This document shows, one piece after another, positions 5,634-45,132 of a stretch of 64,000 nt of DNA. A model generated the notes under the pieces. The model made no database searches, was not told the DNA's origin, and saw only the letters and a list, made by a program, of their open reading frames with translations. The DNA is from Phlegmacium glaucopus. Taxonomy: Eukaryota > Basidiomycota > Agaricomycetes > Agaricales > Cortinariaceae. The DNA is taken from NCBI GenBank assembly GCA_015039465.1, contig MU130446.1, positions 133,677-197,676 of the forward strand. The letters are read 5' to 3'. The first letter of the stretch is position 1. Each line of letters opens with the position of its first letter. A program made the position numbers and the translations under genes.

Positions 5634-6379
5634 CTAGACAGTTTCGGGTTCTGTTACAGGTACGATCTAGAGAAATCTTCAACGTTACTAAACTTGCTTT
5701 TTGGCAATATCATTAAAGCAGAATCACAAACCTTTCCAGTAGTCACGTCATAGATCCAACCGCTTAGGTGCGTCCCTTCCTTGAGAAGTTTGCTTTCTTT
5801 CAAATAGTGAATGTCATCCTGGACGCTTTCCTTAAGGTTAGGAAATGTGAGGAAATCGATTTTATCAATGGCCTCTGCGACTGCAATGTTGCCTGGTTCC
5901 TCGGCCTTGACTTTCTGGCGGATGTCATCGTTGGTAAAGGTAAGCATTCCACAATTAGTGTGGTGGAAGACCGCAACTTCGGTGGTGCCAAGAAGACGTT
6001 GAGAAATCACGATACTCCTAAGCGCCTCCTTGCTGAAACGATTGATGAGAGAGGGTAAGTAAACGACAAGGGATGGACACATACGCGGAGCCACCAGCAT
6101 TACGAATGACATGAGCTTCCCCGAGGTTGATTTGAAGCTGGGCAGCTGGACTGAAACGCTATGTTTGTTAAGGCATGAAAACAACCTTGAATTGACATAC
6201 TCGATTCGAGCATCCATACATGTCACTTAGAGAGTCGTTATAAGCGATTATAGATACTTTTGATTACTGATGGACATACCGACTACGAGCTTCTTAGAAG
6301 GAGGCAAAGGCAAGTTGCCTTTATCAAAAGTTGAAGCATAACGCTCGTTTTTGAGAATTAATTCCTGATAGCTGGCCAT
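5634..6379 (-). CDS. Beta-carbonic anhydrase
   Basis: Reversible hydration of CO2 to bicarbonate. Five exons (6379-6280, 6225-6201, 6150-6085, 6032-5732, 5666-5634) give 525 nt, or 174 residues. The zinc-site motifs are in place: CMDARID across the second intron, and HHTNCGM in exon 4. The core also shows LGEAHVIRNAGG and ALRSIVISQRLLGTTE, typical of small single-domain fungal/bacterial-type beta enzymes. The length suits that group. No signal peptide is obvious, so it is probably cytosolic. The second exon is only 25 nt and splits the zinc-ligand motif. Confidence 0.93.
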
Positions 6380-6636
6380 TGAAAGTGAGCACCAAGAGGG
6401 TGATGAATCAATTCAGTCATTCGTTTGTATGAGACTCACAGTGTTCTTTATAGGGATCCCCCGGAAACGGGCCTTCATAAGGATCCCACGAAATTGCGCA
6501 ATTGGCACACCACAATAGCTCATTGAATTGTTTTTTGACGATGAAGAGTGGGAATGAAACTTGGGCTGATTATGTCAGCACTTCGGTATTGAACTTAACC
6601 GATGACCGGAACATCCAAGACTGTTCTCCTACTATC

Positions 6637-18154: not shown

Positions 18155-20690
18155 ATGTTCGCAAACCCTAGAAATCTGGTCATTACTGGTGGACGATTTA
18201 ACAACAGCAATGTCACCAATGAATGGACAATTGGTAACCATGGTGTGTCTGACTTAAACCTCTCTCCATGGAAGATAATGATGCTGATGAGAGTGCCAGG
18301 AATTGGTCTTCTTCACAAACACAGCGTGCCTGGGGCAACTCATGACTCTGGGGAACGCTTCGACCCTCCAAAATGCGACGCGAATACTCGTATATTGATC
18401 ATTCAAAGACTCACGGCGTGGGTGAAGAGCAAACAACAATCGTCCTCCATGTTGTGGCTCCGTGGTTCTGCTGGAGTTGGAAAGTCTGCGCTAGCTCAAT
18501 CCCTTGCAGAGCTGTGTGCCTTGGAAGCTATTCTAGCTGGTACTTTCTTTTTCTCTAGGACGTCTCCAAATCCAAAACGAAGCGACGGTCGATCAGTCCT
18601 CCTAACCATTGCGTCCCAACTTTTATCATCTTTTCCGCGTATAAGAAAGTTCGTCAACAAAACCATCCAAGACGATCCCTCTATCTTTGACCGATCCCTC
18701 GAAACACAGATGCGAGAATTAATTATTAAACCCCTTACTTGCCTTGCAAATTCCCCAACGCAGAGATTTCTTCGACTCTTCATTCCGCCACCCGTCCGAT
18801 TGATTATTATTGATGGCCTCGACGAGTGTTTAGACCAAGCCATCCAATGCGAGCTGCTGAGAATAATTGGAACTTCCCTTAAGAAGTTTCCTTTTCCGTT
18901 TAGGTTCTTGATCGCTAGCCGTCCCGACGTTCATATCACTCGAACATTCCAACTTGACTTGATGGCGATGCGATACACCGAAATTGACTTGTCCGAGGAA
19001 ATTTCCGCATCCTCAGATATTCACATCCTGCTAAGGAAACGTTTCGATGATATAAAACGGACACATATCCTCCGCCAATACATCCCTTCTTCTTGGCCGA
19101 GCGAGGATGAGATCAACGAGCTGGTTCGCAGGTCATCTTGTCAATTCATCTATGCATCGACTGTGATCAAGTACATCAGTTCTCCCAAGCATCAGCCGAC
19201 TGAACGGCTTAATGTCATAATGGGCCTCTCTCATCCAGTAAAGGATAATCCATATGCTCAATTGGATGCGTTGTATATGCATATTTTCTCATGCGTCGAT
19301 GACATCTCAACTGCATTAATTATCCTGGGTGTTCTCTTTATCTCGATGGAGGGAGACCTTATTGCAACTCCGGCCAAGCTTGAAAAATTGCTTTTTTTGA
19401 AACAGGGAGAGGTGGAACTTGTTCTCAGCGATTTGCGCTCGGTTTTGACAGTGGAAGATCAATCTATTCGCATCCTACATGCCTCTCTTCCTGATTTTCT
19501 CCTTAATCCTTCGAGGTCAATAGATTTTTATGTCAATTTGGGCGTGTCACATGCTGCGCTGGCTAGAGGCTATATGAGAGATGCCTCCGAAGTGACATAT
19601 GACCTCGGTAAGTCTATTCCTTTCCAGTGAGAACGCTTTTCACATCTTTCGGATCGGTAGATTCAATGTGTCATTCATGGGACCTAATCCTTACCCATCT
19701 CAACAAAGCTGTCCTGACAGAAGGACTTCATCGCGACCTATTATACTTCAAATTCACTGCCATTCTACGTCGTTCCAACTTTCGGATCAAGCGACCTGAG
19801 ACTGGAAAGGTAAACTGGTCATCAACTATAAAATTTCAGGGCTATGTTATGCACTGGATATGGTCCTTTTTGCGTTGCATCGAGGAAACAGAGGTAGATA
19901 ATTACTCGGACAGAAATTGTGTTAATATCTCATTCTCAAACAGGCATTTAAACACTCGAAGGACATATATGATCGACATATGAAAACATTTGATGAACAC
20001 CTGAACCATAAACTCCTCGTCTATCTCTCGCATCAAGATTTGGCAGATGTGCTTACTTTTCTCTCCATCTACGAAGATGGGCTTGACGCACATGCCATTT
20101 CCCATTGCATTCCCGCATTGTTGAAATCAGCAACTGATTATTTGGCGGTCACCAGGATCGACGAAAATGCGTTGCATTTCGGAGCATTGTGCTCACGTGA
20201 GGAGGCAGGGCATACTTCCGACTCAACGTCAGGACAGCAGCGTTACCTGGTAATGTTACGTTGCTTTCTTCAGGATCCCAAACGATCTGGAAGATACTTT
20301 GTTGACGGTGTGAAGTATGCTCGTGCTGCAGTCAGGTGTTTCAAGGTTGTCTGCCCTCCTACTCCAGAACAGGAACTCCCTTTAAAAACAAAAGTGGACA
20401 ATCCAGTTACTTTGACGGGGTATATCAAAATGATGACGGAAATTGCATTCTTGCAATGTATAGCAGCCCTCCTCCCCAGAGCCGCTATTGCTGACGACCT
20501 CCTCGCCTTACTCGCCAACAATGAAATGCTAATTAAACGGAGGAATAGAATACTGCATGGGAAGAAGGGAGTGGCTGCCCCCGAGCTGGCGGCGCAGATA
20601 GGAGTATATCTACAGGCAAGTTATCTCTCTTTTCTTGTGGGCTGCGGCGTGGCTGAAAGTGCCACAGCGCGGAGCCATCGCGAAGAGTAA
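18155..20690 (+). CDS. NACHT-domain STAND NTPase (fungal NLR-like)
   Basis: Signal-transducing P-loop NTPase of the kind linked to fungal non-self recognition. The start at 18155 gives MFANPRNLVITGGRF, the usual N-terminal motif of the basidiomycete family. An intron is likely after NHG (donor gtgtct, acceptor gtgccag before GIGLLHK). The Walker A is GSAGVGKS (about residue 104 if read through), the Walker B RLIIIDGLDEC, and the sensor region FRFLIASRPD. The C-terminal half after the intron near 19606-19660 (MCHSWDLILTHL..) is helical and has no WD40, ANK or TPR repeats I can recognise. Probable stop at 20690, but a donor-like gtaag-free end makes the last exon uncertain. It borders the DUF6534 repeat region. 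Confidence 0.85.
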
Positions 20691-31112: not shown

Positions 31113-31172
31113 TAGTGTTGCGATGGTTGCTAGCCAGCAACCGGTTTCATGTAGCCGGGTTCGTATCACTAC
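31113..31172. other. Short TAGTG..CACTA segment beside the copia element
   Basis: A 59-bp piece begins TAGTG and ends CACTA, with an internal hairpin (ggttgct..agcaacc). It could be a remnant of a small TIR element, but there is no second copy in the window and no clean target duplication. The copia target duplication actac covers its last bases. Confidence 0.3.
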
Positions 31173-31457
31173 TGTTGGACTGGTAGTCTATAGTCAGGAC
31201 GTCTATCACGTTCTATATCACGTGCCTCAACACTCCTTTATATACCGCGTTTCGGCTCTGTTTACACTTTTCCTCAGTTGTCATCTTTCTTGTTTCCCGA
31301 CACTGAGGACGTAAGTTTACTACATCGTTACCTTCATATATGTATGTAGCTAACTCTGTCACTAGCACACTCCGTCGTGTCTAGGTGAATATCTATTAGT
31401 TGTCATCTTTCTTGTTTCCCGACACTGAGGACCACACTCCGTCGTGTCTAGATTACA
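31173..31457 (+). repeat. 5' LTR of the copia element
   Basis: TATA-like tatata at 31239-31244. A leader unit 31276-31310 is followed by a 55-nt intron-like segment 31311-31365 (gtaagt .. ctaac .. cactag), then 31366-31384. After a 13-nt spacer, 31398-31451 repeats the same leader without that segment. The LTR ends at 31457 immediately before the primer-binding site. Confidence 0.96.
31311..31365 (+). other. Spliceosomal intron inside the 5' LTR
   Basis: 55 nt with donor GAC|gtaagt, branch point gctaact (ctaac at 31350-31354, 11 nt before the end) and acceptor cactag. The copy of the leader at 31398-31451 lacks exactly this segment, which is direct evidence that it has been spliced out of an RNA that was then copied. 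The same intron is at 37115-37169 in the 3' LTR. Confidence 0.85.
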
Positions 31458-31472
31458 GGTTATGGGCCCTGC
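31458..31472 (+). promoter_or_regulatory. Primer-binding site, half initiator-Met tRNA
   Basis: ggttatgggccctgc starts directly after the 5' LTR. It is complementary, with one mismatch, to the anticodon stem-loop of initiator Met tRNA (5' half, ending in the CAU loop). This is the type used by Drosophila copia and some fungal relatives, in which a tRNA cut in the anticodon loop primes DNA synthesis, not the usual 3' CCA end. Confidence 0.75.
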
Positions 31473-36966: not shown

Positions 36967-36976
36967 GATGGGGGTG
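36967..36976 (+). promoter_or_regulatory. Polypurine tract of the copia element
   Basis: gatgggggtg lies directly before the 3' LTR, where plus-strand DNA synthesis is primed. Confidence 0.6.
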
Positions 36977-37261
36977 TGTTGGACTGGTAGTCTATAGTCA
37001 GGACGTCTATCATGTTCTATATCACGTGCCTCAACACTCCTTTATATACCGCGTTTCGGCTCTGTTTACACTTTTCCTCAGTTGTCATCTTTCTTGTTTC
37101 CCGACACTGAGGACGTAAGTTTACTACATCGTTACCTTCATATATGTATGTAGCTAACTCTGTCACTAGCACACTCCGTCGTGTCTAGGTGAATATCTAT
37201 TAGTTGTCATCTTTCTTGTTTCCCGACACTGAGGACCACACTCTGTCGTGTCTAGATTACA
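36977..37261 (+). repeat. 3' LTR of the copia element
   Basis: Same length and structure as the 5' LTR, including the intron (37115-37169) and the intron-less second leader (37202-37255). Two differences from the 5' LTR, both C to T at CpG. Confidence 0.96.
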
Positions 37262-37266
37262 ACTAC

Positions 37267-37806
37267 TAGTCAAGGGTAACCCCAGGGTGGAATTAGGCTG
37301 ACCCTTACCCTTACCCTCCAAAAACCCTTACCCTTGGCTGAGGGTAAGGGTTTTGGAGGGTAAGGGTAAGGGTTTCTGAGGGGTTGGAAGGTAAGAAACC
37401 CCAGCAGGGTTTAGTGCAAGGGTTTGGTCCAAATCCTTCCTCAAGCTTTGTAATCCAAAGGAGCCTTCAAAGTAGCTATTATTTAAAACATGTTCAGAGT
37501 GTTAAAGGTGTTTAGCAATAGATTTTAAATGAAATAGAGAGGGTTTGAGTAGTATTTTAAGCTACTGATTGTTGTGAAAGCAGTGAGGCCTCTTTAGATT
37601 GCTTTTTCTCTGATTTAAAGTCAATTTTATAGATACACAACAGTTAGATCACTCTGATATCAGAGAAATAAAAATTCCCAAAAATACCCTGACCCCTCCA
37701 GAAGGGTAAGGGTTTTTCAAGGGTCAAAAAATCTGCACCCTGACCCTGACCCTCCTTACCCTTACCCTTGTACCCCAGGGGTTTCCCAAACCCCTGCCCA
37801 TCACTA
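37267..37806. mobile_element. CCCTTA palindromic MITE-like element, copy 1
   Basis: Starts near tagtcaagggtaacccc and ends acccctgcccatcacta. It contains an arm of CCCTTA repeats (37302-37334) facing its reverse complement (37341-37372), with a 6-nt loop. About 540 bp and no coding frame. The first 370 bp match the element starting at 44274, and its right end is the reverse complement of that element's left terminus. The left end has been altered, and no target duplication is clear. Confidence 0.6.
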
Positions 37807-43154: not shown

Positions 43155-43308
43155 AGGCTGCGGCTTTTGGCACATAGAGTTGATTTTGATGCTGGGGCAT
43201 AGAAAGGGGGGTATAGGGATGCATTGGTCAATAAAACCAAATTAATGCATGATTTATAAATCAGTGCATTGAACCAAGCAGGATTAGTGCATGGCACCAT
43301 TGTTTTAA
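43155..43308. other. Internal part of the outer hAT
   Basis: Non-coding sequence between the inner hAT and the tandem repeat; no feature seen. Confidence 0.5.
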
Positions 43309-44092
43309 TCTGCTACATCTAATTTACTCATAAGATTGCTATATTCAAAGAACGCAGCTGCATATTCCTCTCATTTTATCAGATATTATGTCTGTGATGA
43401 AAATTGGTTAAAATACATCCAAAATTTAGCCTGAATGATGCACAACTCACCTAGTAACATTACTTATCCTGGTATATCTAGCTTTCTTGTAAAATCAATA
43501 CATTGAGAGAATGCTGTAGTGTGTTCCTCTCATCTTATCAGATCTGAAATCTGTGGTGAAAATAGGTTAGGAACGACCCAAAGTTGAGCCAGAACAATGC
43601 CCAACTCACCTAGTAGAATTACCTATCCTGCCATATTTAATTTATTCATAAAATCACTATATCAAGAGAACACGGTGGCACATTCCTCTTGTCTCATCAG
43701 ATATGAAATATGTGGTTAAAATGAGTTAGGAATGATCCAAAGTTGAGCCAGGATGATGCCCAATTCACCTAGTAGAATTATCTATCCTGGTATATCTAGC
43801 TTTCTTGTAAAATTGCTATATTGAGAGAACGTGGCAGCATATTCCTCTTGTCTCATCAGATCTAAAATTTGTGGTAAAAATAGGTTAGGAACAACCCAAA
43901 GTTGGGCCAGAACGATGCCCAACTCACCTGGTAGAATTACCTATCTGCTATATCTAATTTGCTTATAAAATCACTCTATTGAGAGAACACAGTGGTGTGT
44001 TCCTCTAGTCTCATCAGATCTAAAATTTGTGGTGAAAATTAGCTAGGAACAATCCAAAGTTTAGCCTAAACAATGCCCAACTCACCTAGTTA
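43309..44092. repeat. Tandem repeat, about 159-bp period, five copies
   Basis: A ttcctct landmark recurs at 43364, 43524, 43683, 43842 and 44000. Each unit contains tcatcagatctaaaatttgtgg, a cactcacctagtagaattac-like stretch and a tatatctagctttcttgtaaa-like stretch, differing by scattered substitutions. It lies inside the outer hAT, just before its right terminus. Confidence 0.92.
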
Positions 44093-44273: not shown

Positions 44274-45132
44274 TAGTGATGGGCAGGGGTAACCCTGGGG
44301 TGGAATTAGGCTGACCCTTACCCTTACCCTCCAAAACCCTTACCCTCCCCCAAGGGTAAGGGTTTTGGAGGGTAAGGGTAAGGGTTTCTGAGGGGTTGGA
44401 GGGTAAGAAACCCCAGCAGGGTTTAGTGCAAGGGTTTGGTCCAAATCTTTCCTCAAGCTTTATAATCCCAAGAAACCTTCAAAGTAGCTATTATTTAAAA
44501 TATTTTCAGGGTGTTCAAGATGTTTATCAATAGATTTTCAATGAAATAGAGAGGGTTTGACTAGTATTTTAGGCTACTGATTGTTGTGAAAGCAGTGAGG
44601 CCTCTTTGGATTTTCTTTTTCTCTGATTTAAAGTCATTTTTATAGATACACAACAGTTAGATCACACAAGCATTCATGGCAGCAAAGTTCACTGAGGAGG
44701 AGGACTATCGCTACTTACACAAGCTTGCATGGGAGGCTAATGGGGAGGAGAGGAAGCGACGAAAGGAACTTGTTGATTTCCATGACAAACGACAAGCAGA
44801 TAAAACTGCATGCAAGGAGGTCTGAGAGAGAAATGCTAAGGCAACTGCAGAGCAGATTGCACAATTGGACCTTAAATTTGACAAAGAAAAAATTCCAAGC
44901 CTCAAAGGCTTGGCCCTGAAGGACCAATTAAAGCTTTTCAAGAATGCAGGTGCCCCAAATCTAAAGCAGGGAGCACTGCCAACCAAAGTTGGTGACATCC
45001 ATAAAGCACTCATAGATGCTATTGATCTGCATACAAAAGGCACTTGGAAGCTTGTCCCTGATGAGGATAGTGATACTGAGGACACAGATTATGAGGAGGA
45101 GGAGGAGGAGGAGGAGGATTGGGAGGACATAG
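44274..45132. mobile_element. CCCTTA palindromic element, copy 2 (5' part with an ORF)
   Basis: Starts tagtgatgggcaggggtaaccc and runs through a perfect 32-bp inverted repeat (44315-44346 and 44353-44384, loop 44347-44352) made of CCCTTA units. It matches copy 1 up to about 44660, then carries a coding frame that copy 1 lacks. The left flank is gtctccaa; no matching right terminus is found, so the element is incomplete or its right end is elsewhere. Confidence 0.6.

Follow-up and report, generated by a model that had tools for sequence, protein, structure and literature searches.

A split repeat in the LTRs of Ty1/copia elements of Phlegmacium glaucopus points to splicing as a probable regular part of element copying

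RESULTS

The element in the window

The window (the whole 64,000-nucleotide stretch of Phlegmacium glaucopus contig MU130446.1 that was analyzed) contains an LTR retrotransposon whose parts are collected in Table 1. By its sequence, this is a young Ty1/copia element with an unusual LTR and what appears to be a variant mode of replication. We filed it under Ty1/copia because the features tested were found, namely, the domain order, LTRs running from TG to CA, a short target-site duplication, a tRNA primer-binding site (PBS), and a polypurine tract. The Pfam matches in the gag-pol open reading frame come in the order Pol_BBD (661 to 746), gag_pre-integrs (804 to 859; 25.4 bits, under its cutoff of 28.4), SH3_retrovirus (1036 to 1102), and RVT_2 (1301 to 1556); no match to rve was listed in the Pfam search of this frame. 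The single frame holds no env domain, and its reverse transcriptase (RT) is of the copia type (RVT_2), so the element does not belong to the foamy viruses. GGGCCCATAACC, the complement of the PBS GGTTATGGGCCC, is found in three tRNA-Met(CAT) genes elsewhere in the assembly, and we take this tRNA to be of the initiator type. Priming by half a tRNA is used by Drosophila copia and Ty5.

A protein search with pol returned 2377 relatives, and among the best 120 the named hosts were mushrooms, e.g., Lyophyllum, Hypsizygus, Coprinopsis, and Candolleomyces. Among these best 120 of 2377 (P0001 to P0120), many come from "jgi" or "ena" contigs roughly 5 to 7 kb long, about the length of one element. When viral_contigs was searched with pol, we obtained one pattern match and zero confirmed relatives. 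The window also holds short repeats of AGGGTAAGGG and CCCTTACCC units, which adjoin the 3′ LTR and recur 7 kb off, a tandem array, and an open reading frame with a NACHT/nephrocystin-3-like P-loop domain of the kind known from NLR-like fungal proteins.

Table 1. Features of the window (positions are those of the window, forward strand)
Feature	Position	Strand	Remarks
Open reading frame with NACHT/nephrocystin-3-like P-loop domain	18155-19627	+	
Target-site duplication, left (ACTAC)	31168-31172	+	Identical five bases after the 3′ LTR
5′ LTR, 285 nt, TG..CA	31173-31457	+	2 differences from the 3′ LTR
TATA-like motif	31239-31244	+	−37 to −32 from putative start; read by eye
Hairpin CCTCAGT..ACTGAGG across putative start site	31272-31308	+	3′ arm stops 2 nt before int1 donor
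E1, putative first leader exon	31276-31310	+	Putative transcription start, A 31276 after TC; repeat begins at TC/A
int1, 55 nt, GTAAGT..GCTAAC..CACTAG	31311-31365	+	Exactly the segment absent from the second copy
E2, putative second leader exon	31366-31384	+	Ends CTAG; repeat boundary
Linker GTGAATATCTATT, 13 nt	31385-31397	+	Donor end of putative int2; GT at end of homology
Putative int2, 67 nt (linker plus joined copy), GTGAAT..CTAG	31385-31451	+	GT/AG borders
E1′E2′, intronless second copy	31398-31451	+	54/54 identical to E1 plus E2; in the 3′ LTR, functional R under the model
U5 (ATTACA)	31452-31457	+	LTR end ahead of PBS
PBS GGTTATGGGCCC	31458-31469	+	Complementary to tRNA-Met anticodon arm
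gag-pol open reading frame, 1815 codons	31492-36939	+	Copia order; Pfam domains in sequence
Polypurine tract GATGGGGGTG	36967-36976	+	Purine-rich run adjoining the 3′ LTR
3′ LTR	36977-37261	+	Same layout as the 5′ LTR
E1 of 3′ LTR	37080-37114	+	
int1 of 3′ LTR	37115-37169	+	
E2 of 3′ LTR	37170-37188	+	
Linker of 3′ LTR	37189-37201	+	
E1′E2′ of 3′ LTR	37202-37255	+	
Target-site duplication, right (ACTAC)	37262-37266	+	
Short repeats of AGGGTAAGGG/CCCTTACCC units	37301-37382, 37683-37770, 44352-44394		
Tandem array	43308-44090		159-bp unit, about five copies

A split repeat in each LTR

In both LTRs, two pieces (E1 and E2) that are separated by a 55-nt segment recur after a short linker, joined without a gap (E1′E2′). 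The two versions are identical throughout in the 5′ LTR and at 53 of 54 positions in the 3′ LTR. An original prediction made for the 5′ LTR had given the boundaries of the two pieces and of their joined repeat, and these were correct. It had also read the intervening segment, with its gtaagt, ctaac, and cactag motifs, as an intron, and both the segment and its spliceosomal type are borne out by the families described below; it had placed the repeat start just below a TATA-like motif, which indeed sits 32 to 37 nt above position 31276. Its views that the second copy resembles a reverse-transcribed spliced leader and that the structure had been inherited are supported as well; exactly a GT..AG segment is missing from the second copy, and the 3′ LTR has the same layout. 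What it overlooked is that the linker starts with GT and the second copy ends with CTAG, so that, by its borders, the linker plus the second copy reads as a second intron.

We scored such layouts with a split-repeat detector, which searches for two pieces lying 25 to 140 nt apart that recur downstream as one uninterrupted stretch and does not require GT-AG. The window LTR scored 54, and 100 single-base shuffles peaked at 17; none of 500 dinucleotide shuffles reached a score of 20 (maximum, 18). A score of 20 was reached by 5 of 114 segments in an internal-segment control (maximum, 32.5) and by 17 of 100 in a reverse-complement control (maximum, 40), with no GT..AG gap in the forward sense among those 17.

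The layout is widespread in the genome

The window LTR had 29 matches in its own assembly (60.5 Mb, 259 contigs), and the diverged matches, down to 71 to 77% identity, displayed the same layout by eye. A search with the PBS pattern found 156 places in the assembly; among the first 100, 99 had usable upstream sequence (L041, at a contig end, was left out of the upstream reading). Once repeats and other loci were included, 110 occurrences had 200 nt or more of upstream sequence; these collapsed to 100 distinct segments (maximum length, 340 nt) and then to 99, because the window LTR and L001 are the same LTR. The detector score was 20 or more in 45 of the 100 distinct segments. Removing L128 (a simple repeat) and the duplicate left 43, to which L038, L039 (minus strand), and L141 were added by eye, so that the layout is present in about 46 of 99 distinct LTR ends adjoining a PBS, among the first 100 of the 156 PBS places. 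For counts of unadjusted boundaries, we used 40 PBS-adjacent LTRs, namely, the 45 minus L128 (simple repeat), L011 and L050 (three copies), L135 (mis-parsed), and L001 (window duplicate).

A scan of all loci yielded 81 candidates, from which 17 were removed (reverse-strand shadows, simple repeats, and mis-parsed three-copy LTRs); the 64 LTRs kept fell into 12 families under single linkage at 75% identity of E1-int1-E2. Because the filter and the boundary trimming of the 64-LTR set favor AG ends, raw counts from the 40-LTR set are given alongside. The layout is thus a widespread architecture within this one genome and not a peculiarity of the window element. Two of the loci, L031 (C173) and L032 (C226), have identical printed flanks on both sides, which reflects either a recent segmental duplication or redundant assembly.

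We also placed the layout on an RT tree of 19 fragments (12 layout and 7 nonlayout, with LTR and RT matched by distance on the contig). The sampled layout elements have RT identities to the window element of down to about 36%, and the layout families are distributed over deep branches distinct from one another (the window clade, C9/C78, the AACTT clade, C132, and C7/C140/C147). Nonlayout rows form a subclade beside C7/C140/C147 and two long single branches. The layout label needs at least 3 changes on this tree, in which long branches may join falsely, and the count predates the finding that C61, scored as nonlayout, belongs to L073, which has the reduced form described below. The tree is compatible with one gain and two losses of the layout.

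Repeat boundaries coincide with a putative start site and two candidate introns

Three features predicted from the sequence fall at the boundaries of the repeat: the presumed cap site, int1, and another donor (E2 followed by GT) together with another acceptor (the AG of E2′). At the upstream boundary, TCA, an initiator-like context, lies within 3 nt of the repeat start in 39 of the 40 PBS-adjacent LTRs. TC/A marks the first copy in 60/64 LTRs (11/12 families), and TC precedes the second copy in 5/64 (3/12). Similarly, a TATA-like motif was found at −50 to −20 of the first copy in 21/64 LTRs and 7/12 family representatives and at the same distance from the second copy in 3/64 and 0/12. A transcription start at the second copy was considered and is disfavored because both the TATA-like motifs and the TC context go with the first copy.

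The int1 borders are GT..AG in all 12 family representatives, and each has a branch-like YTNAY motif within the last 38 nt. In the raw gaps of the 40-LTR set, 31 are GT..AG and 5 are AT..AG, the latter being, to judge by their sequence, decayed donors; the 4 that as placed are neither (L068, L080, L095, and L111) have junctions displaced by mismatches. In our judgment, int1 is almost certainly a real intron.

Downstream of E2, the GT that opens the linker lies exactly where the unadjusted homology stops in 34 of the 40 LTRs and within one base of that point in 37, and E2 and E2′ each end with AG in 35 of 40 (raw). In the family representatives, with boundaries normalized to AG, the linker GT is present in 11/12 and the terminal AG of the second copy in 12/12; L108 has no GT directly downstream of E2. 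Neither U5 nor E2′ starts with GT in any of the 64 LTRs. The linker plus E1′E2′ measures 54 to 72 nt in the representatives, int1 48 to 62 nt, and E2 14 to 28 nt. Because the linker starts with GT and the second copy ends with AG, the linker plus E1′E2′ reads as a second GT..AG intron. Its putative donor is weaker than that of int1 (GTANNT, rarely G at +5), and the one branch-like motif that most of these segments share is YTGAG, unlike the classical CTRAY. We consider that the linker plus the second copy probably constitutes a second intron (int2), and the arrangement suggests that the 5′ R would form by splicing.

The two copies are probably re-made together

Within one LTR, the two copies have a mean identity of 97.7% (minimum, 91%; identical in 15 of 40), compared with a median of 57% between the first copies of different LTRs in the 40-LTR set. 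In 37 of 40 cases, no first copy from another LTR was closer to an LTR's first copy than that LTR's own second copy, which was strictly the closest in 33. Across 19 LTR pairs with equal exon lengths and at least 60% identity, which are not independent of each other, 95 sites had changed in both copies, 26 in one only, and 4 otherwise. The differences between copies were mostly transitions, C/T or A/G (77 of 87), as expected of decay after insertion, and no difference predating insertion was found in the two elements whose LTRs were both compared (the window element and C210, whose LTRs were paired via the duplication ACTCT). Because the layout spans about 46 of 99 ends and 12 families and the copies match within LTRs, the second copy would have to be re-made recurrently. 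From these comparisons, it was very probably derived from spliced RNA, and it is quite likely that E1′E2′ is rewritten time and again from E1 and E2.

The original prediction had favored a single event, in which strong-stop cDNA of a spliced RNA was joined end to end to an unspliced R in one element and then inherited as ordinary sequence. The exactness of the structure in both LTRs of the window element agrees with this account, and the RT tree allows a single origin if its three changes are one gain and two losses. A single joining in one element did not hold up against the spread of the layout over many LTR ends and 12 families, and after a one-off event the copies should have drifted apart, yet they agree within LTRs far better than between LTRs and most changed sites have changed in both. 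As sole explanation, one ancient duplication or one such joining is contradicted by the within-LTR agreement across families, and we regard the one-off account as quite improbable.

Gene conversion or selection might instead keep the copies alike while unspliced RNA replicates and splicing plays no part in reverse transcription. An intron in R can indeed persist without a second copy, as L089 and L104 (below) demonstrate, and the E1 hairpin looks selected. Conversion would tend, on the other hand, to spread the intron or delete it, and a mirror scan for an intron in the second copy gave 17 matches in 100 and zero GT..AG gaps; the exon bases that differ between LTRs agree within LTRs, and the copy begins at the putative start site rather than upstream of it. 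Given these points, we think this account very unlikely.

Reduced and aberrant forms

Since two-copy forms without int1 are beyond the reach of the split-repeat detector, we scanned the 55 segments scoring under 20 directly for two direct copies, the first of which is followed by AG/GT or AG/GC and the second of which is not followed by GT. Five segments matched (L038, L039, L073, L106, and L083), and 0 of 220 shuffles did. L038 and L039 have the full layout and had been missed by the detector; L073 and L106 (one family) and L083 have two R copies and the borders of the second intron without int1. The donor is CAG/GCAAGT in L073 and L106 and CTAG/GTGAGT in L083, followed by a linker and a second copy ending with AG before U5. 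Two LTR families beyond the 12 thus hold the putative second intron alone, and they are separate support for the predicted int2.

In view of these three LTRs, which hold two copies but no int1, the two-copy form may have come before int1. The original prediction had named related elements in which the two copies predate the intron as evidence against itself; two-copy LTRs without int1 do exist, so the objection may hold in part, and that order of events would also be compatible with re-copying. If int1 entered the first copy of a two-copy element, re-copying via spliced RNA would still keep the second copy intron free. The same three LTRs also fit an account in which two copies arose first and an intron later entered one of them, the copies not being re-made from spliced RNA. 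That account shares its order of events with the reading we prefer, but without re-copying it leaves the within-LTR agreement of the copies unexplained, and int1 lies in the first copy in 12 of the 12 families that have it (the orientation sought by the detector, with zero GT..AG gaps in the mirror scan). We find it hardly credible.

Other LTRs have three copies (L050, L130, and L011), one copy with the intron (L058, L082, L105, L089, and L104), or one copy without it (L035 and L094). L089 (minus strand) and L104 are diverged insertions of one family with E1-int1-E2-U5, no linker, and no second copy. Because they carry the intron in a one-copy form, an R intron can persist without the layout. 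Failure of single steps of the cycle proposed below would yield three-copy, one-copy intron-bearing, and one-copy intronless side products. DNA recombination or slippage could make them as well, and the LTRs of one element on C63 suggest slippage there, so the aberrant forms are weak support for the cycle. On that contig, L011 (about 6260 to 6629) and L012 (about 507 to 791) are both flanked by the duplication ACTTT and are probably one element. Its 5′ LTR (L011) is three-copy-like, with int1 cut after about 30 nt, filler, and two joined copies, and its 3′ LTR (L012) has the usual two-copy layout, although a newly inserted element is expected to have two LTRs of the same sequence. Among the three-copy LTRs, L050 (C21) and L130 (C237) are nearly identical and lie on separate contigs. 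The sequence before L050 and the sequences after L130 and L132 have CCAGC in common, hinting at a rearranged single insertion.

A rival account builds on slippage throughout: only int1 would be spliced, the strong-stop DNA would be E1E2-linker-E1′E2′-U5, and RT slippage or recombination would trim the units back to two, with no second intron. The variable number of tandem units and the unequal LTRs on C63 (as read by eye) speak for it, and it also accounts for homogenized copies. It offers no reason, though, for a GT where the homology ends or for an AG at the end of the second copy with no GT in U5, and L073, L106, and L083 show the borders of the second intron in LTRs that lack the first. 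We therefore hold this account to be unlikely.

A hairpin across the putative start site

In 11 of the 12 family representatives, a hairpin has a 5′ arm that spans the start and a 3′ arm that stops at the int1 donor or no more than about 2 nt from it; the exception is L048, which folds weakly and whose homology has a later start. Folding was computed for those LTRs in which E1 is preceded by TC, 60 of the 64 (11 of 12 representatives, L048 being left out). The computed energy of the window hairpin was −12.7 kcal/mol with 4 upstream bases and −4.0 kcal/mol from +1, and the means over the 60 LTRs were −11.7 and −3.1 kcal/mol, respectively. Shuffled means in the representatives were −2.1 to −4.7 kcal/mol, and the second copy with its linker folded at −5.2 kcal/mol. 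In 59 of the 60 LTRs, the CTC at −3 to −1 is base-paired with the final 6 nt of E1. A hairpin likewise crosses the copy start in L073 and L106 (−11.4 and −9.4 kcal/mol, respectively, when upstream bases are included; −0.1 and −0.3 kcal/mol when they are not).

The hairpin would be strong only in 3′ LTR RNA because RNA of the 5′ LTR would lack the upstream arm. It would be complete only where the bases above the start are transcribed, and there it may hide the donor and spare the introns. The computed accessibilities point both ways. For the window element, the computation gave no switch: the donor was unpaired with a probability of 0.33 in the 5′ leader versus 0.35 in the 3′ context, and the last four exon bases with 0.26 versus 0.24; the donor of its family representative gave 0.41 versus 0.44. 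For the whole donor region, the values were 0.31 (5′) versus 0.21 (3′) across families (8/11) and 0.29 versus 0.25 across all LTRs (37/60). For the last four exon bases, they were 0.23 versus 0.04 across families (10/11) and 0.30 versus 0.15 across all LTRs (46/60). We propose only tentatively that a hairpin switch hides the donor in the 3′ LTR alone.

DISCUSSION

The layout, its boundaries, the GT..AG signatures, the homogenized copies, and the hairpin were all read in the DNA; from them, we infer splicing, strand transfer, and, tentatively, the hairpin switch. We put at about three in four the probability that an intron interrupts R and that splicing restores an intact R in every replication cycle. 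Transcription would start at E1 of the 5′ LTR, and int1 and int2 (the linker plus the old E1′E2′) would be spliced from the 5′ leader to leave E1E2-U5-PBS. Strong-stop DNA primed at the PBS would be the complement of E1E2-U5; because the linker plus the second copy is taken as a second intron, the strong-stop DNA of an element that already has two copies could once more consist of E1E2-U5 alone. The LTR at the RNA 3′ end would be kept unspliced as U3-E1-int1-E2-linker-E1′E2′, the strong-stop DNA would pair by ordinary homology with the contiguous E1′E2′, and extension would restore U3-E1-int1-E2-linker-E1E2-U5. The intron would survive passage through spliced RNA, and the second copy would be rewritten from the first exons in each cycle, which would keep both alike. 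A stricter version makes splicing obligate for reverse transcription, with R assembled by removing LTR introns, one of which holds the previous R, and with the hairpin allowing splicing in the 5′ LTR and retention in the 3′ LTR; on the sequence evidence, we rate this version an even bet at best.

That the two copies stay matched within each family points to splicing as an integral part of how these elements multiply. The usual view of retroelement life cycles leaves no place for introns in R and requires the genomic RNA to be unspliced. In this genome, many diverged families seem to have passed through spliced RNA and yet kept the intron, with the splice recorded in the DNA of each LTR, so that the layout would be a natural genome-wide record of splicing and of the first strand transfer. 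If this is true, each LTR records the spliced RNA of its parent, a record renewed at each transposition, and introns are inherited via spliced RNA, against the usual scheme, in which they are deleted. The layout also offers a new route by which repeats may evolve in concert. In the literature searched, which lay mostly outside subscription journals, the matches listed included no LTR with an intron plus its own spliced copy and no spliced strong-stop DNA.

Like the Ty1/copia elements with a half-tRNA-Met primer (Drosophila copia and Ty5), the window element has RT last, TG..CA ends, a 5-bp duplication, a polypurine tract, and a PBS matching an anticodon arm. Unlike theirs, its LTR holds two intron-like segments, and whereas R in those elements is a plain repeat of the RNA ends, the 5′ R of the window element would exist only after splicing.

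Introns occur in the RNA of other LTR retrotransposons as well. Those of copia and BARE1 (PMC3735527) and of EVADE and Ogre (PMC12786077) are reported to serve subgenomic mRNA, and the BARE paper argues that an element has to keep its spliced RNA from being reverse transcribed (PMC3735527). For the window element, by contrast, the proposed template is spliced RNA, and copying would bring the intron back. In intron-marked Ty reporters, passage through spliced RNA deletes the reporter intron (PMC12786077); the window LTR would keep its intron, although under the cycle proposed here both pass through spliced RNA.

In foamy viruses, as one report describes (PMC3694450), a splice donor lies inside R, downstream of the start site. 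SHAPE models of RNAs from +1 and from −13 are given there, and RNA that includes the bases above +1, as in the 3′ LTR, folds differently from RNA that begins at +1, as in the 5′ LTR; presumably, the 3′ LTR fold hides the donor. The donor logic in that system governs polyadenylation, and the part of that report consulted describes no spliced copy of R (PMC3694450), whereas the fungal element is of the copia type by its domains. The hairpin of the fungal LTRs would offer a testable case of discrimination between 5′ and 3′ LTRs in fungi, parallel to that of the foamy viruses.
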